From IMG/VR virus record IMGVR_UViG_3300006332_000263, positions 1 to 22,416 of that record: a stretch of 22,416 bases of DNA; one strand, 5' to 3'. This document shows positions 1,146 through 18,300 of this stretch, one piece after another; the first letter of the stretch is position 1, and each line of letters begins with the position of its first letter. This DNA is from a virus. Below the pieces are notes generated by a model. The model saw nothing but the letters and a program-made list of their open reading frames with translations. It was not told the origin of the DNA and made no database searches. Made by a program: the position numbers and the translations under genes.

Positions 1146-1166
1146 CCCCCCCTAGGGGGGTTTTTT
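1146..1166 (+). terminator. Intrinsic terminator with C7-TA-G6 palindrome
   Basis: Seven C (1146-1152), TA, and six G (1155-1160) are followed by six T (1161-1166). The hairpin is pure G-C with a minimal loop and sits nine bases after the stop at 1137. It closes the 821-1137 transcript. Confidence 0.85.
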
Positions 1167-1239
1167 ATATCCGCCTGCTAAGCTTAACATCCATACGCTT
1201 TCTAAGCTATAAAGTCTTGCATGAGCGAGCGTGATATAA

Positions 1240-1269: not shown

Positions 1270-1449
1270 ATGAAAACATTCGACGTAGAGACCACAGTAA
1301 CATATAAGCAGTGGATCAGAGTACAAGCAGAAGATGAGTATGCTGCCCAGAAACGTGTCAACGACATGGCATGGGATGTAACTGCGATACAATATCAGGT
1401 TATGGAGAAGGCAGAATCCACAGGAACGGTTAGAGACTGCCCAGAGTGA
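1270..1449 (+). CDS. Small hypothetical protein, 59 aa
   Basis: The ATG at 1270 opens 59 codons ending in TGA at 1447-1449. The protein begins with a beta-like segment (MKTFDVETTVTYKQWIRVQA) followed by a helix (EDEYAAQKRVNDMAWDV). This layout resembles small phage proteins built on a beta-strand plus 'EDE-A' helix, but I cannot name a family. There is no strong Shine-Dalgarno in the upstream TTTTTCCCT. The stop overlaps the GTG start of the PPTase-like gene by four bases (GTGA), so the two are probably co-translated. Confidence 0.65.
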   Translation: MKTFDVETTVTYKQWIRVQAEDEYAAQKRVNDMAWDVTAIQYQVMEKAESTGTVRDCPE

Positions 1450-1892
1450 AACCCATATACTCCGATGAAGTAGCGAGCGTTTATCTAACCTCAGATGTAA
1501 AACTCGCCCTAAGAATGTTTCTCTGCAGAGTTCCTCTGAGTTGCAAAGAACCTGTGAGAATGTATTGGAATAAATCAGACACTGCTCATTGTACAGTAGT
1601 TGCAGTAGGTTTCAAAGAACTCGGAGTGGATATAGAGTACATGAGATATAGAAGGTTTGAAGATATTTCAAGACGTTACTTTCATAAGGATGAGATTACT
1701 GATAACATGCATACCTTCTATGAGTTATGGTGTAAGAAAGAAGCATACACCAAGTGGAAGAAAGGAAAGATAGCAAAGTACATGTCTCAGAAGATAGACA
1801 AGGATATGACTCAACTAGTTCCACAATCGAGATATCAGATGATAGAACTAGATGGGTTACCTTACAACATTAGAGGGTATCTATGTTATTGA
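1446..1892 (+). CDS. Sfp-type 4'-phosphopantetheinyl transferase-like protein
   Basis: This 148-residue protein shows the bipartite signature of the Sfp/AcpS superfamily. LGVDIE at residues 59-64 supplies the Mg2+-binding Asp62 and Glu64, and WCKKEAYTK at 95-103 supplies Glu99 and the Lys motif that binds CoA phosphate. An N-x-S segment at 42-44 and VVAVG at 51-55 fit the strand before GVDIE, and SRRYFHKDEI at 75-84 matches the usual 'F-s-x-x-E' stretch. Known members move the phosphopantetheine arm of CoA to a serine of an acyl or peptidyl carrier protein. At 148 aa it is shorter than two-domain Sfp (about 225 aa), and the Asp62-Trp95 spacing of 33 is a little short. The GTG start overlaps the previous stop. 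No carrier-protein gene is visible nearby. The fold is likely; activity is inferred only. Confidence 0.75.
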   Translation: MKPIYSDEVASVYLTSDVKLALRMFLCRVPLSCKEPVRMYWNKSDTAHCTVVAVGFKELGVDIEYMRYRRFEDISRRYFHKDEITDNMHTFYELWCKKEAYTKWKKGKIAKYMSQKIDKDMTQLVPQSRYQMIELDGLPYNIRGYLCY

Positions 1893-1917
1893 CAATGTGT
1901 TGATACTCTGATATAAT
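1889..1917 (+). promoter_or_regulatory. Consensus sigma70 promoter
   Basis: TTGACA (1889-1894), a 17-base spacer and TATAAT (1912-1917) match both hexamers exactly. The -35 overlaps the TGA stop (1890-1892) of the PPTase-like gene. It lies 29 bases before the ATG at 1946 and should drive the three small genes 1946-2536 with host polymerase early in infection. Confidence 0.85.
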
Positions 1918-1945: not shown

Positions 1946-2122
1946 ATGCAATACGTCTTATTCAACGAACACTTTGACGAAGTAGGTACGTATGACAGTA
2001 TCTACGATCTTCGTAAGTTTCTTTGTGATCGTAAGTATGAATTAGATTGCGATAAGGATATAGGGGATACGTTTGATTACATCAAGCATATCAAGTGGCA
2101 TTTCGATATCAAACAACAATAG
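1946..2122 (+). CDS. Small hypothetical protein, 58 aa
   Basis: The ATG at 1946 follows a consensus promoter closely and opens 58 codons to TAG at 2120-2122. The product is rich in Asp, Tyr, Phe and Lys (MQYVLFNEHF, then a helix DSIYDLRKFLCDRKYEL, then DYIKHIKWHFDIKQQ), with no membrane segment. I recognise no family. Its stop overlaps the Shine-Dalgarno of the next gene by two bases, indicating one operon. It is first in a unit of three small genes, with a CT-rich leader (CACTCTCTCCTTTCT) instead of a Shine-Dalgarno. Confidence 0.7.
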   Translation: MQYVLFNEHFDEVGTYDSIYDLRKFLCDRKYELDCDKDIGDTFDYIKHIKWHFDIKQQ

Positions 2123-2826: not shown

Positions 2827-3029
2827 CCAAATACGAGTTTGAATACGATTCATGGTTCAGAGATGATATACCAAAGGCACAATACGGAAGTCTTCAGTGT
2901 TGGATAGAGAATGAGAAGACAAAACCTTGGACGAATGCATACGATATGACTATTCATAGTATAATGTATGAGATAGCAGTCAAGAACGGATTACTAACAG
3001 AAGCATATGGCAGTAACCATCACGCCTGA
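2823..3029 (+). CDS. Small hypothetical protein, 68 aa
   Basis: The ATG overlaps the previous stop as ATGA. The 68-residue product is rich in aromatic and acidic residues (YEFEYDSWFRDD, QCWIENEKTKPWTNAYD) and ends in a helix with His-His-Ala. No family is recognised. It overlaps the next gene by 23 bases, making a continuous translational chain 2611-3516. Confidence 0.65.
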   Translation: MTKYEFEYDSWFRDDIPKAQYGSLQCWIENEKTKPWTNAYDMTIHSIMYEIAVKNGLLTEAYGSNHHA

Positions 3030-3516
3030 TGGGACAGCAACGTTCCTTACAGATTTAACTAGACCTAACTTCGCAATGAATGAGACGGTGAGTGCGACAT
3101 GTACAGTTGCATCACCTCAGATATGTAATGTAACCAATGTTACAGCTGCTATACAGGCACCTGCAGTCGAACCCGATCTAGTCATCACTGATGGTACTAC
3201 ATCTGTGAATATAGGAGGATCAATACAGGATCCTTTTGTTGATATCTTCAAATACGTAGATCAAGGGGAATCAGATAAGACACAGACCCCTACAACAATC
3301 GAAAGAGTAATTAATATGCCAGGAGAGAAGATCTACTATGATCTTGAACAAGATGGTACAGTATATGTCAGTAGGTTCTTTGATATTACTGTACAATGGG
3401 AAGCAGGTACTACAGGCAACCTAGTAGCACAGACACCTGCAACATTCGTACTTGAATTGAAGATATATAATGAGTGGGAAGGTATACGTGCCTTCGTTTC
3501 AAATTACTACAATTAA
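3007..3516 (+). CDS. Beta-rich virion-type protein, 169 aa
   Basis: This 169-residue protein is Thr, Val, Asn and Ala rich with few Lys, typical of phage structural beta-sandwich proteins. It opens with MAVTITPDGTATFLTDLTRP, has four Cys-poor beta-like repeats of alternating hydrophobic residues, and ends with a Trp/Tyr/Phe-rich segment (EWEGIRAFVSNYYN). It lies one base upstream of the PAAR spike-tip gene, so a baseplate or tail-spike role is likely by context, but no T4 homologue is evident (it does not resemble gp53 or gp5). The start at 3007 gives a 23-base overlap with the previous gene. Confidence 0.75.
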   Translation: MAVTITPDGTATFLTDLTRPNFAMNETVSATCTVASPQICNVTNVTAAIQAPAVEPDLVITDGTTSVNIGGSIQDPFVDIFKYVDQGESDKTQTPTTIERVINMPGEKIYYDLEQDGTVYVSRFFDITVQWEAGTTGNLVAQTPATFVLELKIYNEWEGIRAFVSNYYN

Positions 3517-3517
3517 A

Positions 3518-3805
3518 ATGCCAGCAGTCACACGAGTCGGAGATGCAGATGTAGCCCATTGTTCTGGAATGTCTAGAGCACAGGGTTCAGGTAACGTCTT
3601 CGCTAATGGTAGACCTATCTCTCGTCAAGGAGATAAGAACACCATTCACTTAAAACCAGGTAATCCATGTCCTCCACACTCTGCTTCTATATCAAGTGGT
3701 AGTTCTACGGTCTTTGTAAATGGCAAAGGTTGTGGTAGAGTAGGAGATGGACTAGGTGGTTGCACATCAGTGGCAGCTGGTTCGTCAAACGTATTCGCAG
3801 GTTAA
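3518..3805 (+). CDS. PAAR-type tail spike tip protein (gp5.4-like)
   Basis: At 95 aa it matches the length of T4 gp5.4. It begins MPAVTRVGDADVAHC, the opening PAAR-type strand, followed by VFANGRPISRQGD (27-39) and a second related segment, VFVNGKGCGRVGDGL (65-79), and closes with another NVFAG. His14, His44, His54 and Cys15, Cys51, Cys81 are candidate metal ligands at the tip. PAAR proteins cap the beta-helical spike trimer and sharpen it for membrane penetration. The ATG at 3518 is chosen over 3470, which would extend back through the previous stop region; it begins one base after the stop at 3516. Confidence 0.88.
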   Translation: MPAVTRVGDADVAHCSGMSRAQGSGNVFANGRPISRQGDKNTIHLKPGNPCPPHSASISSGSSTVFVNGKGCGRVGDGLGGCTSVAAGSSNVFAG

Positions 3806-4126: not shown

Positions 4127-4516
4127 GTGGCATTAATATCGAAGTCATTCCGTGACTTCTCGTTGACATTTGAAAAGAACGCAGTGACAAATGATATTTT
4201 GGCACTGAATAATGAATCAGCCATTAAAGAATCAGTTAAAAATATTGTACTCTACAATTTTTACGAGAAACCTTTTGATCCAGCATTCGGTGGTAATGTC
4301 ATCGGATTGTTGTTTGAAAATTATAATGCAAACGACGCTAAAAAAATCAAGAGACGATTAAAAGACGCAATTAATACTTATGAACCACGGGTGGCGGTTT
4401 ATGAGATTAAAACTAAGTTCACTGAAGATCGTAATCATTTAGATGTAAGCATAGCATACGTTATTATGGGTATTCCACCAACTTTCGATTCTATTGATAT
4501 AGTATTTAAACCGTAA
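4127..4516 (+). CDS. 25: Baseplate wedge protein gp25-like
   Basis: This 129-residue protein matches the gp25/TssE-type baseplate family (T4 gp25 is about 132 aa). The characteristic NFYEKPFDPAFGGNV is at residues 44-58 and the EPRV motif at 86-89. In T4, gp25 sits at the heart of the wedge next to gp6 and gp53 and links the baseplate to sheath assembly. The start is GTG at 4127 (MALISK), preceded by CTTATAGG; no ATG lies suitably close. Its stop shares bases with the ATG of gp6 (TAATG), so the two are coupled. In T4 gene 25 lies in a different cluster from 6-7-8; here it leads them. Confidence 0.93.
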   Translation: MALISKSFRDFSLTFEKNAVTNDILALNNESAIKESVKNIVLYNFYEKPFDPAFGGNVIGLLFENYNANDAKKIKRRLKDAINTYEPRVAVYEIKTKFTEDRNHLDVSIAYVIMGIPPTFDSIDIVFKP

Positions 4517-6369
4517 TGGCATTTAATCAGGTCAACGCCCTCGAATTTAACGAGATAAAGGCACAAATTAAAAGTTATCTAAGAAGTCAAGATCAATTTA
4601 GTGATTATGACTTTGAAGGATCTTCTTTAACGGTGCTTTTAGACGTTTTAGCGTACAATACTTACTATACAGCAGTCAATGCGAACCTAGCAGTTAATGA
4701 AGGGTTCCTAGAGACTGCTGTTTTGCGTGAAAACGTAGTAAAACTTGCTAGAATGATTGGTTACACTCCAAAATCAGCAAGATCGGCACAATGTACTGTT
4801 AATATATCAGTTCAGACTGTAGTTCCTTACCCAAAAACTGTTACAATTAACAAAGGACTAGTTTTAAACTTCACAGGATTAGATAATAATAACTTTGTAT
4901 TCTCACTTGGTACAGATACTACACAGAGTGTTGACAGTACAAGTGGAATTGCAACATTTACAGGTCTTACATTATTTGAAGGAGTATTCCTTACAGATAC
5001 TTTTGTAAAAGATATTAACCAAAGACAAAGATTTATACTTACTAATAAAAATGCAGACACAACTTCTATGAGAGTTGAGGTCACTTCTGGAACTATCACT
5101 GAACGTTATCTACAAGCAACAGATATTACAAAGATTGATTCTACCTCTAAGGTATTTTTCTTAGAAGAATCTGAATATGAGATCCCAGAAATTCTGTTTG
5201 GTGACGGAAAGGTTGGAAAAGATTTATTAAATGGAGATGTCATAAGCGTATCTTATTCTACATCTAGTGGAACTGGTGCAAATGGTCTAAAAGTGTTCGA
5301 GAATATTGGTACATTTAGAGATAACCTAGGAAATTCAATTACTTCTGGTATCACTACGACTGCTACTTCCTTTCCAGATGGAGGTTCAAGAGCAGAAAGT
5401 ACAGAAGCAATCAAATTTGCTGCTCCTAAATTCTATTCTGCCTTTGGTAGAGCAGTTTCTACACGGGATTATGAAGCAATTCTTCCACAAATCTATCCAA
5501 ACATAGGATCTATCTCTTGTTATGGTGGAGAAGAAGCAGAACCACCCGAATATGGTAAGGTATTTTTGGCAATCAAACCAAAAAATGCAGATAAATTATC
5601 TCTTTCTGAGAAAAATGTCATTTTAAAGAAGTTGAGAGAGTATTCTGTTGCTGCGATTCAACCTACAATCATTGATCCATCCATTTTATACATTGATATT
5701 AGCAGTTTTGTGTATTTTAATCCAAATGTTACGCGGAATGAAGCGTCTCAAGTTAAAAATAGCGTCCTTGCTGCGTTAAATGTCTTGAATACTAGCGGAG
5801 AATTCAATAAATTTGGCGGAAAATTCAAATATTCTAGACTTCAAGGTATAATTGATGGTTCAGAAGTCTCAATTACTTCAAATATTACTCGTCTCAAGAT
5901 GAGAAAGAACGTCACCGTGACACTTGGTGCACGTGTGAACTATAAAATATGCTATGGTAACCGCATTAAGCAAGGTACAAGTACAAAACCATGTGTTTAC
6001 AGTAGCGGATTTAAAGTTGTTGGAGACGATTTCAACACTTATTACCTAAATGACGATGGTGCAGGTTTATTGAGACTGTATTACATTAAAGGAACTGGTG
6101 AATTTGAGTATGTTGATGGATTATGGGGTACTGTAGATTACAGTATGGGTGAAATTGTGGTCAATGATTTGATCATTCAGTCTACAAATGTAGCAAATAA
6201 TCAATTACAGATCTCTGGAACTCCAGAATCAAACGATTTGATTTCATTGAGAGAAACCTATTTGACAATAGGTATAGATAATACGACTGTAAGTGTAGTA
6301 GAAGACACTATCAGTAGTGGTTCAAACTTATCTGGTACAGGAGTGGTACCAGAGTCCAGCTATAACTAA
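4516..6369 (+). CDS. 6: Baseplate wedge protein gp6-like
   Basis: The 617-residue protein aligns in layout with T4 gp6 (660 aa) and the baseplate-J superfamily. The N-terminal helical part carries SSLTVLLDVLAYNTYY (36-51) and FLETAVLRENVVKLARMIGY (64-83), hallmarks of this family. The middle contains GRAVSTRDYEAILPQIYP near residues 310-327, the conserved J-like segment. gp6 forms dimers that tie the six wedges into the baseplate ring. The C-terminal 150 residues are beta-rich (NDDGAGLLRLYYIKGTGEFE). It starts at the stop of gp25 and ends six bases before the giant gene, so all are one transcript. Confidence 0.92.
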   Translation: MAFNQVNALEFNEIKAQIKSYLRSQDQFSDYDFEGSSLTVLLDVLAYNTYYTAVNANLAVNEGFLETAVLRENVVKLARMIGYTPKSARSAQCTVNISVQTVVPYPKTVTINKGLVLNFTGLDNNNFVFSLGTDTTQSVDSTSGIATFTGLTLFEGVFLTDTFVKDINQRQRFILTNKNADTTSMRVEVTSGTITERYLQATDITKIDSTSKVFFLEESEYEIPEILFGDGKVGKDLLNGDVISVSYSTSSGTGANGLKVFENIGTFRDNLGNSITSGITTTATSFPDGGSRAESTEAIKFAAPKFYSAFGRAVSTRDYEAILPQIYPNIGSISCYGGEEAEPPEYGKVFLAIKPKNADKLSLSEKNVILKKLREYSVAAIQPTIIDPSILYIDISSFVYFNPNVTRNEASQVKNSVLAALNVLNTSGEFNKFGGKFKYSRLQGIIDGSEVSITSNITRLKMRKNVTVTLGARVNYKICYGNRIKQGTSTKPCVYSSGFKVVGDDFNTYYLNDDGAGLLRLYYIKGTGEFEYVDGLWGTVDYSMGEIVVNDLIIQSTNVANNQLQISGTPESNDLISLRETYLTIGIDNTTVSVVEDTISSGSNLSGTGVVPESSYN

Positions 6370-6375
6370 TTACAG

Positions 6376-9300
6376 ATGACAAATTCTTCATGGAAGGTTA
6401 GCTCGTGGACTACGCCAACCACAACGGTATCTGTACCTCCAGTACCGTCTGAGGTTAGTCCTGAATCTAAATCGCAAATATCCCTAAGTGTTACGGGACA
6501 GTTTGCGTCGTTTATACAGGAAAATTATCCAACCTTCATATCATTTGTTAAACACTACTATAAGTCACAAGAATTAAAAGGATATTGTTTTGATGTAATT
6601 CAAAACTGGTCAGATTATTACAATATTGACAATTATGGCGGTCTAGTTACTGAAACTAAACTTATTTCAGCGTTAACAACATCTTCAACTGCAGTTGACG
6701 TTGAATCTACTCGTGATTTTCCAGATGAGGGTCTTTTGCTTGTAGATGACGAGATCATTTACTACCAAAAGAAAGGATCTACACTATTTCAAGATTGTGC
6801 AAGAGGATTTAACGCTGTAAAGGCAGTTGGAGAGGTTGGAACTTACCAATTTGAGAGTACAACTGCTGCAACACACGAACTTGGAGCAAAAGTTGTTAAT
6901 TTAAACAACATTTTCCCACTTTACGTTCTTGGAAAGTTCAAAGAACAGTTTTTATCGACATTTCCGAAGAATTTTGCAACTGGAGTTACTGAATCTACTG
7001 TAATTAAGCGAATTAAGGACTTCTATGCTGCAAAGGGGTCAACAAGGTCATTCCAGTTTGTCCTAAGAACACTATTTGGAGTAGAATCAGAAGTTAACTA
7101 CCCAAGAGACAGAATATTCAAACCATCTGATGCATATTACACTTCCAGAGAGGTAATTCGTGCGGTTGCTGTTTCTGGAAACCCCATTGATCTTGTAGGA
7201 CAAGTATTATACCAAGAAAACGATACAAATGACCCAAATGTTGCTTCTGCTCGAATTTATGTTAAAGGAGTCGTTGAAGTTTTTACTGCAAGTGGTACAG
7301 TCTTTGAAATTGACGTAGATACTAATAATTCACTAGGTACATTTGTTACACCATACAAATCTACTCTTGCTTCCGACCTTGGAGGTAATTTAACTGACCA
7401 AGTAGTTACAGTTGACTCTACAATTGGTTGGCCAGAGCAAAATGGACGATTTAGAATTGAAGATGAGATTATTAACTATACAGACAAGACTGTAACGCAA
7501 TTTATAGGTTGTACACGTGCTAGAGAGGACACACTATGCGTAGCACATGATGCAGGTCAAGAAGTATTCGCTGCATTCAAGATTTTTGGATATTCTAACA
7601 TAGACAACTCTGAAATTCAGTTAAAAGTCTATGGTGGTACTAGAGGTGTTGTATTATCCAGTGGTGGTAAGTATTACCTTCCAGATAGTAAAGTCACAAC
7701 ACCTGCAGCACCTGGTTTCGATAGTATTGATCCAATATGGGATAGTTACATATACAATGTTAGAAAGGCACTGAGAGGGGAGTCTGCGACCCTAGGACAA
7801 GTCAATCCAGATGGTTCGGTACGTTGTACTGTTAGAACAAAAGAAAAACATCGTTTATTAAGAGATGATGTGATTAGGATCCTCAATGCTCCTGAAGACA
7901 TCTATAATAACTTGCATGATGTTGCAGGTATTATTAGTGATACTGAATTTGAATTTATATTCAGTACATCACCATCTGGCGGTATATCAAACTTTGAGTT
8001 TTACATTGCTAGAGAGTTTGCTTTTGGTAGAAGTGACTTTAACTCTATTAACGTTGGAATCAGTCCATATACAGGAGACGTACAAAATACTTACAGGAGT
8101 AGTACAGATGCTATTGTCACTAGTACAGGTGTACCATCGCATAAGGTAGGTCCTTTTGGTTCTGGAGACTTAAATCCTGGTAACCAACGATATCTTAAGA
8201 GAATACCTCTTACACCATCAACTAAGAGTACTAAAACTGCTACTCCTGTTGGTCAGGTGGGTATTGGTGCAAATGGTGTCCCATTCTTTTCATATAAAGG
8301 AGAATCTAAGAAAAAGTTTGGTGGATTGAAGTCAATCACTAAAATTAATGGTGGAGAAGGTTATGATATTACAAACCCTCCTACAGTTGAGTTTGAATCG
8401 GAATATCAACTCAATAAAGCGTATGCTTCTGGTATTAGAGTCAAGTATAACGGAAATAGGTATAGATCTCTTTCTGCAGGCACATCATCTACTACATTGT
8501 ACCCAACACACACTTCTGGTGACGTTGCAGTGGGGCAAATTACTTGGCAGTACGAAGGAACACCTGCTGAAGCAACTGTTACAGTAAAAGGATCTGTAAC
8601 TGCTATAAACGTAACTAATGGTGGTAGTGGATATACCACAGAACCTATTGTGTCTATCACTGGAGGTGGAGCAACCTCAGATAACCAAGCATCTGGGTCA
8701 GCAGTGATTACATCTGGTATAGTTACTGGTATTAACGTTGTTAGTGGTGGATCTGGTTACACTAGCGTTCCTACCATCACAATCACTGGTGGTAATGGTT
8801 CTGGAGCAACTGCAACTGCAACTTGTCGAGGTCCTGTTGATGCAATTAACATTACTAATGCAGGAACTCAATATGATTATGAACCAACTATTAATTTGAT
8901 TTCTGGTAGTGGTGCTGTTGCATATCCGTCTATATTGAACGGAAAAATTGAAAGTATTATTGTTACATTCGGTGGTAGTGGATATTTCGGTGCTCCAGAC
9001 GTTGTTATCACTGGAGACGGAGTTGGTGCTACTGCATTTGCTCAAGTAGACCTTTCTAGTAATATTGTTACTGGTATTGTCATAACAAACAAAGGTGTAG
9101 GGTATAGTGCAGGTGCTACAACAGTTAGTATTGTATATCCTGGTACAGGTGCACAATTTCAGACTAATTTAACAGAATTAACATTTAATGAAGCAGCAAC
9201 TTATCAAGAACTAGGAGTTACATCAAATCAGTTCACAAATAGGAAAACTGTAGATTATGCAAATGGTACAACCATGCAAGGGGAGAACTATTTGATATAT

Positions 9301-12300
9301 GGTGGAGAATATGGATATTTGTATAACCCTAAGCAACTTAGATTCTTATTAAGAGATAATATTAATGATTCATTACAAGAATTAAATCCTACCTCACATT
9401 CACCGATTATTGGTTGGGCATATGATGGACATCCCATATATGGACCTTATGGTTTTGAAGATCCACAAAATGCAGCCCCATTTAACTCATATAAGTTAAT
9501 GATCTCTAGTTATGATGTAAAGACCTCTAGAGATACTCTTCTAAGCGGTCTAGCAGACCCTATGGGAACTTATATTGAAGATTATGAGTATACGGAAGGA
9601 TCTGGAGATTTAGACCAATATAATGGAAGATTTTGCGTTACTCCAGAATATCCAAATGGAGTTTATGCATATTTTGCTACAATCAAAGGTTCTGCTGGTG
9701 AACCCAAGTTTCCTTACTTTATAGGACCTAATTTCTACTCAGAAGCGGATGCTGTCAACTGGAATGGTAATGGATTGCAGAAAAACTTTACAGAAGATGC
9801 AATTAGGTATAAAGCCCCATTTATCGGTACAGATAACATTGTAGCGAAGAGAAAGAAACTTGATAACAGAGTTGACTTCTTCTTGGCACTAGAAGACACC
9901 ACAACATTGATTGTGATGGAAACTGGTGAGGTATTAACCTATCTTGAAGATGGAATTGGGTATTTCAGTTACTATCCAGTAATTAGAGGTGGTAGTGCTG
10001 ATTCTATGGTAGTTTCAGCAACTAACAAATATTCATCTGCTGGTGTTGACCAATATCTAGTTGAAGGTGGTGGTAAAGACTATAAAGTTAATGATAGACT
10101 TCAATTTGATAATACTGGTACTGGTGGAGAAGGTGTAAGTGCAGTAGTGTCTGCTATTGAGGGTTTATCTGTTAATTCACTTTCCATGTTTGAGGTAACA
10201 GGTGAAAATAGGTATTTTGCAACTGTTAATACTGCAGATAACCATTTACTACAAGCTGGCAATACACAAGTTATTAGTGTAGTAGATAACCTCTATACAA
10301 GAACTATTAAGACAAAAATTATTGGTGGTAAGTATCATTTTAACTATGCTGATGTACGTAGCATGAAACTTGTTGCTCCATATCAAAATACTACTGCATA
10401 TTCTCTAGGTGACCTAATTTACGTTCAAGACCGAGTTTATCGTGCTTCTACTGGTACATCTAGTTCAACAGCACCAACTCATGAATCTGGTACTCTTACT
10501 GACGGTTCTATGGATTGGTTATACTTAAGAAAGCGTACAGATGGTAATTTATATCAAGATGGGTGGAGTAGCATTACAGGTGGTTCTGGATATCTTAATG
10601 GTACATATACTGGAGTTCCTTTAGAAACTAATGGATCTGGTAGAGGTGCAACTGCTACTATAGTCGTTTCTGGTGGTTCTGTAACAAATGTTACAATTAC
10701 TGAGAAAGGAACAGCATATAACGTTGGTGATACCATTACTGCTACAGATTTGAACTTAGGTAATAATGGAGGTTCGAGTTTTACTATAACATTGACCCAA
10801 GTTGAAACTGAAGCACAAATTCATCTTAATAAAGCTCATCAGCTTGATATTGGCGATATAGTCAATCTTTCAGGTGTCACACCTTCGGAATATAATAAAA
10901 CCGACTATACAGTTGTTCGTAGTGATACATTAAACAGATTTACCGTAAAACGCAACTTTGCAACTATTGCAGCTGCTACAATTACAGCTGCAGAGGTTTA
11001 TGTCCAAGAACCAAAATTAAAATTGATTAATGGGCACAAATACACTTTTGACACTTCTGATTCTAGTAATGTTGGAAAAACACTTGCATTTACGTTAGAT
11101 TCCGCAAATACCGATATTTTCACTTATAAGAATATTACTGATGAAGTTAGAGACGCAATTACTGCAGATCAGACATCTATTACGATTTTAGTCAATGATT
11201 TGCCAGGAATCTTCTATTACTTCGATATTCAAGGATCTACAAGTGGAAACTACTTTACAGCAATTAATGATCCGATAATAGGCACTCAATCTGTCTTTTC
11301 AAAGACTGATACAAGTTTTACCTACGAAATGAAGGTAGCACCTGAAAGTGGGTACACAACTGGCGTATCTTACACTACAGACTCAATATACCCATCTGGA
11401 GGTATCGCATCAATCACTATCGGTGATCCTGGTAGAAATTACTCATCTCTTCCAAAATTAAGTTCATCTACTAGATCTGGATCTGGTGCAACTGCTTTTG
11501 CGACTATTTCTGGAACATTATCTAATGTATCAGTTACAAACGTTGGATCTGGATATAATAATTCATCTTTACCAACTGGAGTTGTTACATTACCAGATTA
11601 TGTTGATTTGACACTTACAGGTATACTTGGAACTTTTATTCCAAATGAAATTCTTATATCACAACCAAGTCAAGGAAACCAGACTGCTAGAGGTCAAGTA
11701 ATTAGTTACAACCCAATTACATCTATATTAAGAGTTAAACCACTTAGGAACGAAAGAACAGGTGCAGGTAACAAAGGATACATTATGTTCTCTACTGGGA
11801 CTGCTGAGACCAATAATGTGTTCAGTGCAGATTCACAGGCATCTATAAGTGCAATAAGTGGAACTCAGGCAACTGTGGCAACTGTGGTGTCTGGTGGTGG
11901 TACATTAGATGAAGTTAGTGTTACTAATCCTGGTTCTAACTATAGAGCTGCTCCATCTATTATATTTGATGATCCTTACTATGGATCAGTAGATACAATC
12001 ACAACTATAACTCAACCAGCAGGTAACGGAACATATACCGCAGATACAACAACTACTGGGGTAACCCAAACCAGTGTTGCTCCTGTCAATGGTACAAATG
12101 CCACTTTCACAGTTGCCACAGATGGTAACGGAAGGATAGCAACTATCACAGTAACCGCAGGTGGTACTGCGTATGCATTAGGTGATGTTATCACTTTCGA
12201 TGGTACAAAGATACCAGGTGGTGCATCTAATGAAGACTTTACTGTGACAGTTAACGGATTGGCACATGCTAATCCTGCAACGATCTCTACTCTATTAGAT

Positions 12301-15300
12301 GCTTCTGTGGATACTATTACTGTTACAAACAGTGGATCTGGTTATCTTTCTGCACCTAACATTGAGGTTACTGGTGGTAATGGAATCAATGCTAAGTTTA
12401 ACGCTATTATTATTAACGAAGGTGTTAACAGTATTAATATAGAAAATGGTGGTATTCAGTATCAAAGTGCTCCAGTAGTTAATATTACTCAGAAAACAGG
12501 TTCAGGTGCTTCTATATTACTTAAGTCATCTAACATGGGTGAGATATTGAAGATTGGTGGAGATAATATCACATTTAACTATTCTCATGATAGAACCTTA
12601 AAACCAGAACTTAATACAACATATAATCTACAACTTACAAGAACTCAAGTTCTAGATTACTTTACTATTACTAATGGTGGTTCAAACTTTGTATCAACAC
12701 CTGAAATTGTTCTTGTTGGTGGAGGTGGATCTTTATTTGAAACAAGGGCAAAGATAGAAAATGAAGTTATACAATCTATTACAATCATCAATGAGGGTAG
12801 AGGTTTCTTAGCTGCTCCTACAGTTCAAGCAAGAGTAACTCATACATGGGTTGGATTGCAATCTAATAGCACTCTTAACTTCCCATACAACACTAAGATA
12901 CCAACAGGTACAAAGGTAACACTTCAGCAACTTACTGGTCAGTTCCCAAATCCATTAGCAGAAAATACAACTTATTATGCTGTTGCTGCTACTATAGCAA
13001 ATGCATTAGCAGATAACCAAATCAAACTTGCTGCAACTCTTGCAGATGCTAATCTTGGTAACACTATATCATTCACTAGTGCACCTGTAGGTGATGCTTT
13101 AACAGGTCAGACATACTTCACATTACAGACTACCGACTTAGGTGACAATATTACTGCGTTTATGAAACCTGCTACTTTCTCTGTTGGAGAGAGGATTTAT
13201 CAAGGTGCTTCTACATCTTCATTTACTGCATATGGATTTGTTAAGAACTGGGATGCTTCTGGTCGTGTTGTTAGTGTAGAAATCGTAGAAGGTGAATTTA
13301 AAGTAGGTGAACCTGTATTTGGTGAGGAGACTGCTGCATTTGGTCAGATTCATGAGTTTACTAGAGCAGATGCTGTATTCGAGGTTTCTCCTATTAGTAT
13401 CTCGGCAACTACCTGGGAGAAGACAACTGGTTTCTTAGACCTTAACGAACAAAGACTATATGATAGTGACAGATATCAGGAATTTTCATATGACATATCG
13501 TCATCTATCAACATTAATGATTGGAAAAGTCCACTTAAGTTCGCTGCTCACCCAGCAGGTTTTAAAGTTGTTGGTACACAAATACTATCACAAGCAAGCA
13601 CCAAATCCTTCAGATCCAAACCATCTCTTAACCTTAATTCTGGTAACTCGTTTGATTGGTGGGTTCCAACAACAAATAGTTTAGGAACTACATTTAACGG
13701 TACAACATATATCATTCCTAAACCATCTGCTAAGGCAACTGGTAAGTTATCTGTTATTAAAAACTTTGCTCTTGGTAAACCTGACTATAGTGCTGCTGTT
13801 CCAACGGAGATACAGGTATTTGGTAAACAACTATTAGATATCCAGAAGATCTTATCTTGTATCGCATATAAGATTGATGATATTACAGATAGATCACTTT
13901 CTTTCGATGGATCATCATCTACCGTAGTTGATACGTCTTCTAATAGAATTACACTTACGAATCATAATCTTATTGATGATCAACGTGTCATCTACAATTC
14001 TGGTGGTGATAGATTCCAAGATGCAAGAAATCTAATTATCTCAAATATTGATTATATCGTAGAAGAGACTATTGGTTTCTTAAATGCTACATATCCAAGT
14101 TTACAATACAATTCAGCAACCTGTGCTAGAGATACAAGACTAGTTGTTGCTGCATGGGCAAATGATTTGAGATATGGTGGTAACTTCTTCTCACTAGCAG
14201 CTGCCAATGCATATGTTGGTGCAGTTGTACCACTAGGCAATGCTTATATTGATGCTGCTAATCTACTCAAAGACAATAAGAACTTGATTGCTGCTGAAGC
14301 AGTTCATTTAATGTTGAATGATCCTACTGTTGGTATTGCATCTGGTTATCCTGGCGTACCTGGTGGAGATCAAAACTGTATTGATGATATTGTTGATGTA
14401 GTTGAAGCAATCGCTTACAATTTACAATATGGATCAAATAGTGAGGTATGGGATGCTGCAAATTATTATGTGAACACAGTACACCTAGATGGTGAAGAAA
14501 CACAATCAGTATGGGCGTTTAATAAAGCAAAAGAGTTAGCAGCAAATATCATCGTCAATACTTCAATTACTATTCAAGGATCTCATGGTTATACTCAAGT
14601 TACTAATACTGGTGTCACCTTTGATGCTGCTGTCTGTGCTACAGTTGATGCTGCAATGGACACCCTCTTTAATATTGTTACCACTGCTATTAGTAGTGAT
14701 AGTCTTTCTACTGTAACTAGAACCAATCCTTCAAATCATATCTTACACATTGAAGGTGAAGAGACTGAGACCATCTATGCCTTTAATAAAGCAAGAGATC
14801 TTTGTAACCTTGCTATAGTCAACAACCTACCAATAGGCACATACACGACTATAAATCCAGTAAAAGACCTCAGTATTACGGTAGCCTCAGACAGTTGTGC
14901 AACTGTCACAAGTGCCATCACATCCTTTGCAAAAATCATTACTGATGCTATTGATAATCCATCTACATTACCCGAACCAAATATAGGAAATTATCCTGAT
15001 ATTAGAACTGGTACTCCTATTGGTGGATTATCTAATGGTAGTGCATATTATGTTAGGTACATTAATGCAGATACTATTGAACTTAGAAATATACCTGGTG
15101 GACCTGCAATTGGTTTAACTTCTGTTGGTTCTGGTGGTGGTCACACAATTAGGTGTTTTATTGATGGTACAAATACTCAATTTAGAGTAGTTAATAATGG
15201 CACAGCAATGACTACTAAGTTGGGCAAAACTCCTGATAAGGATCAACTGTTTGTTATTGCTAATGGTATTGTTCAGAATCCACAAAATTATTCATACGCA

Positions 15301-18300
15301 AATGATATTATAACATTTAATCAACCATTGCTTAGTGGTACATCTGTACTAGCAATGTACTATGATCGTAAATCATACACCTCTAGTTTCCAGTTGGATA
15401 CTATTGGAGATGAACTTAAGACTTTTGGTGCAATAACACCAGGTATTGGATATAGTAATGGAACTTACATAAATGTACCATTAAAGAATAATCTTGGATC
15501 TGGTAGTGGTGCTACTGCAGATATTACAGTTTCTGGTAATAAGGTAACCAATGTTGTATTGAATCAAGCAGGTAATGGATATACTGAGGATGATGTATTG
15601 GGTCTATCTGATGTGGGTGAACAGTTAACTAATAACTATGTTCCTTCTACAGCAACGTATACACCTGCTAGTGGTGATTTGGAGTTAACTATTGGTAATC
15701 ACACTCTAACAACTAATGATACAGTTAGAATTGCTAATAACGCCCTAACCTTCAGTTGTTCTTATGGTGGTGGTGGAACTGCAGCATATCCACGTCCTAC
15801 AGATCCTATTGGTAATCTATTTGATGTTCCTATTACTGCGACAAGTGCGACTACTATCACAGTCAATGCTTTACAGGGTACATCTCCTACCAACACTGAT
15901 GCCCATACATGGCAAGGTTTAAGCACTTATCAATTCCAACCAACTAAGGTTAAGTATATTCCTGCAACAGGTGACATGATAGTTACTGCTGCTGCTCATG
16001 GAATGTTTAAGGGCGATAGAGTACAGATTGCCACTGATTCATTAACATTTACATGCTCTAAGGATAGTAACTCTAGTAACCACACATATCCTCGTCTTGC
16101 TGATCCTGCGGATGGTGCATGGTTGACTATTTCTAGTGTCACTACAGATGCGTTTACTGTTAATGTTGGAAGAAGTGAGAGATTTGAATTTACACCTTCA
16201 GCATCAACATACAATGCTGCAACAGGTGATGTGACTCTTGATATTGGCGATCATTCATTACTTGCTCCAATAGAACATACAGCAACTGGTGCGGTTTATA
16301 CACCTGCAGACGGTAAGGTAGTAATAACCGTCACTGGTCATGGAATGTCTAATGGTGACAGAGTATGGATCGTAGATGATTCATTATCATTTACATGTAC
16401 TCATGGTTCAGGTACGAAGACATATCCTAGATCAACTGACCCGATTAGTGGTAAGTTTGTAGAGATTTTTGATGTAACAAATAATACATTTACTATTCAG
16501 TGTTTGGAGACTATTCCATCAACAAATACCACTACTCATACATTTACTGGTGCATCTAGTTCTGGTATTAGACAGGCAAGAGATTTTGTAACAATTAAGA
16601 GAAATGGATTGATCTATACTTGTGAGATGGATGACAGAGCAACACGTCATGCCTATCCTCGTAAGGGTGATCCTGCAGATGGTGCACCATTGGGTATTAA
16701 AGCAGTCTCAGGCAACGTTATTACTGTAAACGTTGGTAAGTCACCTATCGTAAATTACACCCCTACAGATGCCACATACAACCCAACTACGGGTATTATG
16801 GAATTAACTATTGGTTCTCATAATATTGTATCTGGTACAAGTATTAAACTTGCAGAGAATGCAATAACCTTTAGTTGTGGATATGGTGGTGCTAGTGGTG
16901 CAGCTGCAGAGAAATCATATCCAAGATCATTAACAGATGGATTTGATGTAACTGCTGTTAACTATAATCCTGACAATGGGGTTATGACAGTTACTTCACC
17001 GTCACATGGCATGGTAGCAGATGACTGGATTAAATTCAAACCAGAATCATTAACATTTACATGTAATCTTGATGGCAACACTAAGAAGAAACAGTATCCA
17101 CGCACTACAGATTATGCATATGATAGGTGGTTAAAGGTATCAAATGTTACAACTAATACATTTGACGTTACTGTTCTAGATGTAATACCTTCTACTAACA
17201 CAGATGTACATTTATTCAGTCCATTGGCTAAGTTAGGACCTTCAAATGCCGACTATAATCCTACTACAGGTGTGATGACAATCACCAATAAGCAGTTGAC
17301 TGTATCAGATGCTACATATAATCCTACATCTGGTGATATGGTTCTGACTGTTGGTACTCATGGATTGACTGATCTTGACGTAGTGAGAATTGATACAGAA
17401 TCTATATCATTCAGTTGTGAGTATAATGGTGTTACTCAAACTAAGGCATATCCTAGAACAAGCAATGATTATATCAATGGTGTTGACGTTCCAATTACAG
17501 CATACACACCTACTACCATTACTGTTAATGTAAATGGTGGGCAAGGTGCTATCAGTCATGCTGTACCTCATACATTTGTAAGTGCGACTGCAAATGGTGT
17601 TAAGGTTGGTCATGGATTAACAAACGGAGACTTCATTAAGATTAAGGATGATTCACTACAATTCTCTTGTACAACTGGTGTAGGGGCTAAGACTTATCCT
17701 AGAGGTGTACAGGCACAATATACTGCAGGTGCAGGTACAACCTATGATCCACTCACAGGTCTTATGGTTGTTACCACAACTACTAACCATGCAATTCAGG
17801 TTGGTGATAAGATTAAATTTGATGATGGTGCTACATCATTCAGTTGTACTGCAGGTTCATTCCCCCACACATATGTTGGTGGTACTGTTAATAATGCTGT
17901 TACTGTAGTTACAGACAGCAATACTCAGAAGAATGTAACTGACGCATCATATAATCCTGCAAATGGTCAGGTAGAATTGACAATCGGTGCTCATAGTTAT
18001 ACAACAAGTGATACTGTTAAGATCACTACTAACTCTCTAACATTTACTTGTGATGAAGATAGTAATGCTACTAACCACACATACCCAAGACTTACTGATC
18101 CTGCATACGAACAAGTATTACCAATTCTTGCTGAGACTGCTACTACAATTACTGTTGCTGTTGGTACTGCAGCTACTACTGCTGCTACCGCATATCCAAG
18201 ATCAGGAGACTATGCTAGTGGTAAATGGTTAACAGTGTCTGAGAGGACTGCTAACACCTTCACTGTTAAGGTATTAGATGTAGTTCCTTCAACAAATATT

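Follow-up and report, generated by a model that had tools for sequence, protein, structure and literature searches.

A shortened Sfp-type phosphopantetheinyl transferase in a T4-like cyanophage and its probable acyl carrier protein substrate

Gene organization upstream of the baseplate genes

The stretch of DNA analyzed here (the window) comes from an IMG/VR record and covers 22.4 kb of the genome of a T4-like cyanophage, a virus of the marine cyanobacterium Prochlorococcus. Near its start lies a gene for a phosphopantetheinyl transferase (PPTase) of the Sfp type. The features of the region are as follows.

1146-1166, plus strand: intrinsic-terminator-like site, dividing the cluster from the upstream genes
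1202-1236, plus strand: conserved intergenic element CTAAGCTATAAAGTCTTGCATGAGCGAGCGTGATAT, at the head of the gene cluster
1270-1449, plus strand: 59-aa open reading frame (ORF) of unknown function, with weak DpnD-PcfM similarity below the cut-off
1446-1892, plus strand: Sfp-type PPTase ORF, 148 aa, GTG start and TGA stop; Mg2+-binding residues Asp62, Glu64 and Glu99, general acid Lys103, and Ser44-Asp45 replacing the usual Ser-His
1889-1917, plus strand: perfect sigma-70-type promoter, TTGACA-17-TATAAT, 12 of 12 positions, with TG before the -10 box
1946-2122, plus strand: 58-aa conserved cyanophage protein, homologue of T4-GC 391 (PHROG 718), the right border of the cassette
3470-3805, plus strand: PAAR spike protein homologue (PHROG 281), 86% identical to the PAAR protein of P-HM2, the downstream synteny anchor
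4127-6369, plus strand: baseplate wedge genes gp25 and gp6, which anchored synteny in the presence/absence survey

On the 3' side of the PPTase gene, small conserved cyanophage genes are followed by PAAR, gp25, gp6, gp7 and gp8, with gp6 about 80% identical to those of P-HM1, P-HM2 and MED4-213. This order bears out the "T4-like" label given in the preliminary description of the sequence. At the gp7 (baseplate wedge initiator) position the window has a single ORF of 4780 aa with many internal repeats (6376-20718). The ORF at 3007-3516, which adjoins PAAR in the baseplate region, belongs to PHROG 23903 ("toxin") and corresponds to a "putative RTX toxin" of P-HM2; the P-HM2 homologue has no Pfam match, and the toxin label is doubtful.

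The conserved intergenic element at the head of the cluster matches once in the window and in none of 100 shuffled sequences. Its consensus, CTAA(G/T)CTATAAAGTCTTGCAT(GA/CC)GCGAGCG, recurs at 3312-3347, 4930-4965 and 4826-4860 of three related contigs (L271, L029 and L062), and the DNA immediately upstream of it varies from contig to contig. It is possibly a phage promoter or another signal. The element is not specific to the PPTase, as it is equally present in contigs that lack the gene, and a reading of this leader as a T4 late promoter was not used, since that motif (NATAAATA) is found in some close relatives only.

The PPTase start codon overlaps the stop codon of the 59-aa ORF in the sequence GTGA, and the two genes are therefore probably translationally coupled. 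The 59-aa ORF is retained in several contigs without PPTase and is missing in lineages in which the PPTase gene directly follows the conserved element. The sigma-70-type promoter overlaps the PPTase stop codon and is directed at the next gene (1946-2122), which is thus likely to be an early gene that starts independently; the -10 region of this promoter is also kept in L271, which lacks the PPTase.

Family assignment and predicted structure

We conclude that ORF 1446-1892 is a genuine PPTase superfamily gene, as it has relatives at 52 loci in IMG/VR viral contigs, a median dN/dS of 0.21 (37 pairs) and a start codon overlapping the preceding ORF. A dN/dS of about 0.2 reflects strong purifying selection. 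The ORF and both signature motifs, GVDIE at residues 60 to 64 and WCKKEAYTK at residues 95 to 103, lie exactly where the preliminary description had placed them. Its motif spacing of 33 residues corresponds to the distance from Asp62 to Trp95; the distance from Glu64 to Glu99 is 35, and the Glu109-Glu151 distance in Sfp (numbering of PMC4103896) is 42. Residue conservation was assessed over 30 to 42 relatives, and Asp62, Glu64, Trp95, Lys98, Glu99 and Lys103 are unchanged across 30 aligned relatives with 39 to 95% identity to the window protein.

The Pfam ACPS family (PF01648), proposed earlier as the profile to search, matched the ORF with an E value of 3.5e-8 and 33.9 bits, above the curated cut-off of 25 bits, and the phage relatives scored 34 to 39 bits. 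A search of the PDB with the window protein alone reached Sfp weakly (E value of 0.05), and a profile of the phage family reached it with an E value of 7e-9. The nearest NCBIfam models were the Sfp-type AusB and the cyanobacterial HetI, both matched well under their equivalog cut-offs.

An AlphaFold model built on the alignment of relatives had a mean pLDDT of 88 and a pTM of 0.82. When it was compared with the PDB by Foldseek, the first two ranks were taken by the Sfp-CoA and Sfp-CoA-PCP complexes (1qr0/4mrt) with a probability of 1.00 and TM-scores by query of 0.56 to 0.61, and the best viral structure match was the protein of MED4-213. In this comparison, which the preliminary description had suggested making against both Sfp and AcpS, Sfp came out on top (E value of 8e-4) and AcpS was reached at an E value of 4 or worse. 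An AcpS-type identity is ruled out by the signature, the fold and the lack of an NCBIfam AcpS match.

The protein carries the Sfp-type signature, (V/I)G(V/I)D-x-E followed by W-x-x-KE-A-x-x-K, together with the Asp-Glu-Glu triad. Alignment with Sfp implies that the three acidic residues would cluster in space, and characterized group II PPTases cannot do without the first and third of the Mg residues (PMC4103896). In the human enzyme, Glu181 acts as the base and Lys185, at the Glu+4 position, as the general acid (PMC2148441), and Glu99 and Lys103 of the window protein have the same spacing. The canonical architecture of Sfp-type enzymes, with two complete pseudo-repeats in about 220 to 240 aa, is not found in the 148-aa phage protein: about 60 residues precede GVDIE, compared with about 103 to 110 in the host enzymes, so that its N-terminal half is some 45 residues shorter than theirs. 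We therefore classify it as a shortened, non-canonical Sfp-type enzyme. Profile, fold and invariant catalytic residues thus agree both with the original call of an Sfp-type PPTase-like enzyme and with its characterization as a minimal or diverged form.

In a phylogenetic tree based on 81 columns and having long branches, the phage PPTases group together in a single well-supported clade, separate from the picocyanobacterial enzymes. Because of this position, the gene is probably not a recent copy of the gene of its present host. Recent capture from a host is hinted at by a shared "KEA..KW..GKIA" helix, yet it finds no support in this 81-column, long-branch tree.

Distribution of the PPTase and the phage ACP

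The PPTase gene is found in only three cyanophage genomes among several hundred, those of the Prochlorococcus phages P-HM1, P-HM2 and MED4-213. As a measure of the breadth of the search, gp6 of the window matched 373 records with Synechococcus in the name and 61 with Cyanophage. The earlier statement that such a gene is unusual among cyanophage auxiliary genes thus holds as to frequency; the gene is not new, having been noted in P-HM1 and P-HM2 in 2010. In these two phages it is annotated as "4'-P-pantetheinyl transferase", and the MED4-213 copy is annotated as hypothetical. Sullivan et al. (2010) named the acyl carrier protein (ACP) and its "synthetase" in P-HM1 and P-HM2 (PMC3037559), and listed ACP, PPTase and PF05118-like proteins among the genes present only in those two phages (PMC3037559). 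P-HM2 encodes two such aspartyl/asparaginyl beta-hydroxylase-like proteins (PF05118), at 148600-149301 and 161912-162400.

Using gp6 as the probe and counting loci with at least 3.2 kb of upstream sequence, we found the PPTase present at 11 of 22 loci and absent from the other 11. Direct comparison of the window with L271, a contig without PPTase, revealed high identity in the leader, the 59-aa ORF and the gene that comes next, and no recognizable PPTase remnant. The PPTase is a clean presence/absence cassette gene.

The ACP was found in the same three isolates, P-HM1, P-HM2 and MED4-213, and in none of the remaining cyanophage records of the collection searched. In P-HM2 it is PHM2_029, lies at 18917-19411 and is annotated "acyl carrier protein ACP". 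The family (T4-GC 457, PHROG 27464) comprises proteins of about 160 aa, whose core matches the NCBIfam acyl carrier protein model (75 versus 71 bits) and keeps the DSLD motif. Using the neighboring YadA-domain gene as the probe, we found the ACP at the same place in 59 of 60 viral contigs of the clade, with Asp-Ser-Leu in 59 of 59; the sixtieth contig ends near the ACP site. We therefore count the ACP among the core genes of the clade; its dN/dS is 0.17. The window contig (22 kb) ends before the ACP site, and we infer that the window's own phage also carries the gene.

The gene that overlaps the ACP gene (1832-2329 of L017; 19368-19865 of P-HM2) resembles a 2OG-Fe(II) oxygenase, just under the Pfam cut-off. 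PHROG 274 labels its family "DNA endonuclease V," a probable mislabeling. In G030, a metagenomic contig of the most divergent lineage, an insert with a transaldolase-like (talC) gene separates the ACP from cpeT (L093, 18230-18763 and 16170-16823).

Both genes were seen in P-HM1, P-HM2, MED4-213 and G030, where the search proposed in the preliminary description, for a phage carrier-like protein with a D-S-L motif, thus succeeded. The ACP lies about 22 to 26 kb upstream of the PPTase in genomes that show both sites, with about 22 kb in the isolates; G030 has the two genes on the same strand at a distance of about 25 kb. None of the other PPTase contigs, the window among them, extends to the ACP site; G004 and G008 break off inside the intervening fibre gene. 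Two further contigs (G098 and G121) are fully syntenic and carry the ACP but lack the PPTase, which rules out strict co-occurrence of the two genes. No PPTase without ACP was found among the contigs and genomes long enough to show both sites. The distribution is thus nested, with the PPTase confined to the ACP-bearing clade, a pattern consistent with an enzyme that supports the ACP yet is replaceable, the substitute presumably being the host PPTase.

Proposed role and comparison with known systems

The results favor, with fair though incomplete confidence, a small Sfp-type PPTase that loads an ACP, in the first place most likely that of the phage itself. The enzyme would move 4'-phosphopantetheine from CoA onto the conserved serine of the Asp-Ser-Leu motif. 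The PPTase is presumably active, with the phage ACP as its main substrate and host AcpP perhaps as a side substrate, and relatives without the gene would rely on the single Sfp-type PPTase of the host. Holo-ACP would then work with the type II fatty-acid synthase of the host and serve host acyl metabolism. This use appears the most likely because helix II of the phage ACP is close to that of host AcpP; no acyltransferases or thioesterases that could use the ACP were recognized among the P-HM2 proteins scanned.

Several observations count against this proposal. The PPTase is dispensable for the ACP, since G098 and G121 keep the ACP without it, and the two genes do not share an operon. Both genes are shown by three isolates of one genus, of which P-HM1 and P-HM2 are closely related, and by one contig, and shared ancestry alone could explain their co-occurrence.

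It is also conceivable, though unlikely, that the PPTase mainly modifies host AcpP, replenishing holo-ACP and thereby keeping fatty-acid synthesis going once the host genome is degraded. The high-light Prochlorococcus genomes searched, which included single-cell genomes, some of them incomplete, usually have one Sfp-type PPTase, about 220 aa long, and a single AcpP scoring above the cut-off, so that host fatty-acid synthesis would rest on a single enzyme. Cyanobacterial Sfp-type PPTases modify their fatty-acid ACP (PMC5605751), and the DSL-VELVM-LEE core is common to the phage and host ACPs. However, every visible genome with the PPTase also encodes an ACP, the PPTase never occurs in cyanophages that lack one, and host AcpP is presumably mostly in the holo form already. 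The preliminary description had named host fatty-acid or polyketide carriers, or a phage protein, as targets. The phage's own ACP is now better supported, and hijacking of host polyketide carriers is improbable, as the high-light Prochlorococcus genomes searched mostly have only AcpP above the cut-off.

A second question is how well the enzyme works. The Ser-His pair that contacts the CoA phosphate in canonical enzymes is represented by a retained Ser and, in every relative, an invariant Asp. The N-terminal basic residues of the CoA-phosphate site in Sfp, Lys28 and Lys31 (PMC2148441), have their equivalents in the shortened region of the phage protein, where no alignment is possible. In the human PPTase, the equivalent His binds the 3'-phosphate of CoA and the H111A change reduces CoA affinity, and loss of the arginines that contact the 3'-phosphate increases kcat (PMC2148441). 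By analogy, CoA handling by the phage enzyme may be altered, and the short N-terminal half together with Ser-Asp could weaken CoA binding. These same features, read with the human H111A result, would suit a catalytically weak or repurposed protein that binds CoA or a carrier but transfers inefficiently, acting for example as a regulator or a CoA/ACP sink. We regard this as decidedly unlikely, as the Mg2+ and acid/base residues are invariant even in very diverged relatives under strong purifying selection. Likewise unlikely, and speculative, is the idea of a minimal, phage-adapted Sfp enzyme of 16 to 17 kDa that frees the phage acyl-carrier system from the single host PPTase, its half-size N-terminal lobe and Ser-Asp pair cutting dependence on the 3'-phosphate. 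If this were true, faster product release or acceptance of dephospho-CoA would be possible.

Modification of a protein other than an ACP, whether from phage or host, is highly improbable: the gene does adjoin small proteins of unknown function, which is nothing specific, but the PPTase family is known for acting on PP-binding domains, and the whole phage genomes searched yielded one PP-binding domain protein each, the ACP.

Loading of the phage ACP by the PPTase would be of interest beyond this locus. Prochlorococcus is the most abundant photosynthetic cell, and photosynthesis and carbon genes are a well-known feature of its phages. A viral ACP that is conserved, and is accompanied in some members by an enzyme to activate it, suggests that viruses exert control over acyl and lipid metabolism. 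The system is testable, as nature provides versions of one locus with and without the PPTase and the host usually has one AcpP and one PPTase; no tests of either phage protein were found in the papers searched. A 148-aa Sfp-type enzyme, if active, would also be a useful small protein-labeling tool.

The window PPTase is a well-supported further member of a known viral gene family. New here are the confirmation of the fold, the shortened architecture and the Ser-Asp change, together with the core status of the ACP, the nested distribution, the precise PPTase cassette and the conserved intergenic element at the head of the cluster. Its orthologues are the proteins of T4-GC 500 (PHM1_077 and PHM2_076; PHROG 23098) in P-HM1, P-HM2 and MED4-213, which have about 50% identity to it, carry the same motifs and likewise sit upstream of PAAR-gp25-gp6. 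Compared with them, the window protein lacks about 11 residues near the N terminus and has about 11 extra near the C terminus, and the window has the 59-aa ORF between the conserved element and the PPTase gene. Bacillus subtilis Sfp (1qr0, 4mrt), the best fold match, shares with it W-x-x-KEA, the Asp-Glu-Glu triad and the Lys at Glu+4, but is about 224 aa long rather than 148, has about 105 rather than about 60 residues before the GVDIE strand, has Ser-His in place of Ser-Asp and is 18 to 20% identical over the aligned part. The Sfp-type PPTases of host Prochlorococcus and Synechococcus (217 to 237 aa) belong to the same superfamily and have a partly similar "KEA..KW..GKIA" helix. AcpS-type holo-ACP synthases, which are trimeric and act on fatty-acid ACPs, are similarly short (about 120 aa), but the signature of the window protein is of the Sfp type. 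The presumed partner, the phage ACP of T4-GC 457, has a TIGR00517-like core with DSLD and differs from host AcpP in a phage-specific N terminus (M-[SA]-YN-TY-IK) and a C-terminal tail, both of which are absent from AcpP.
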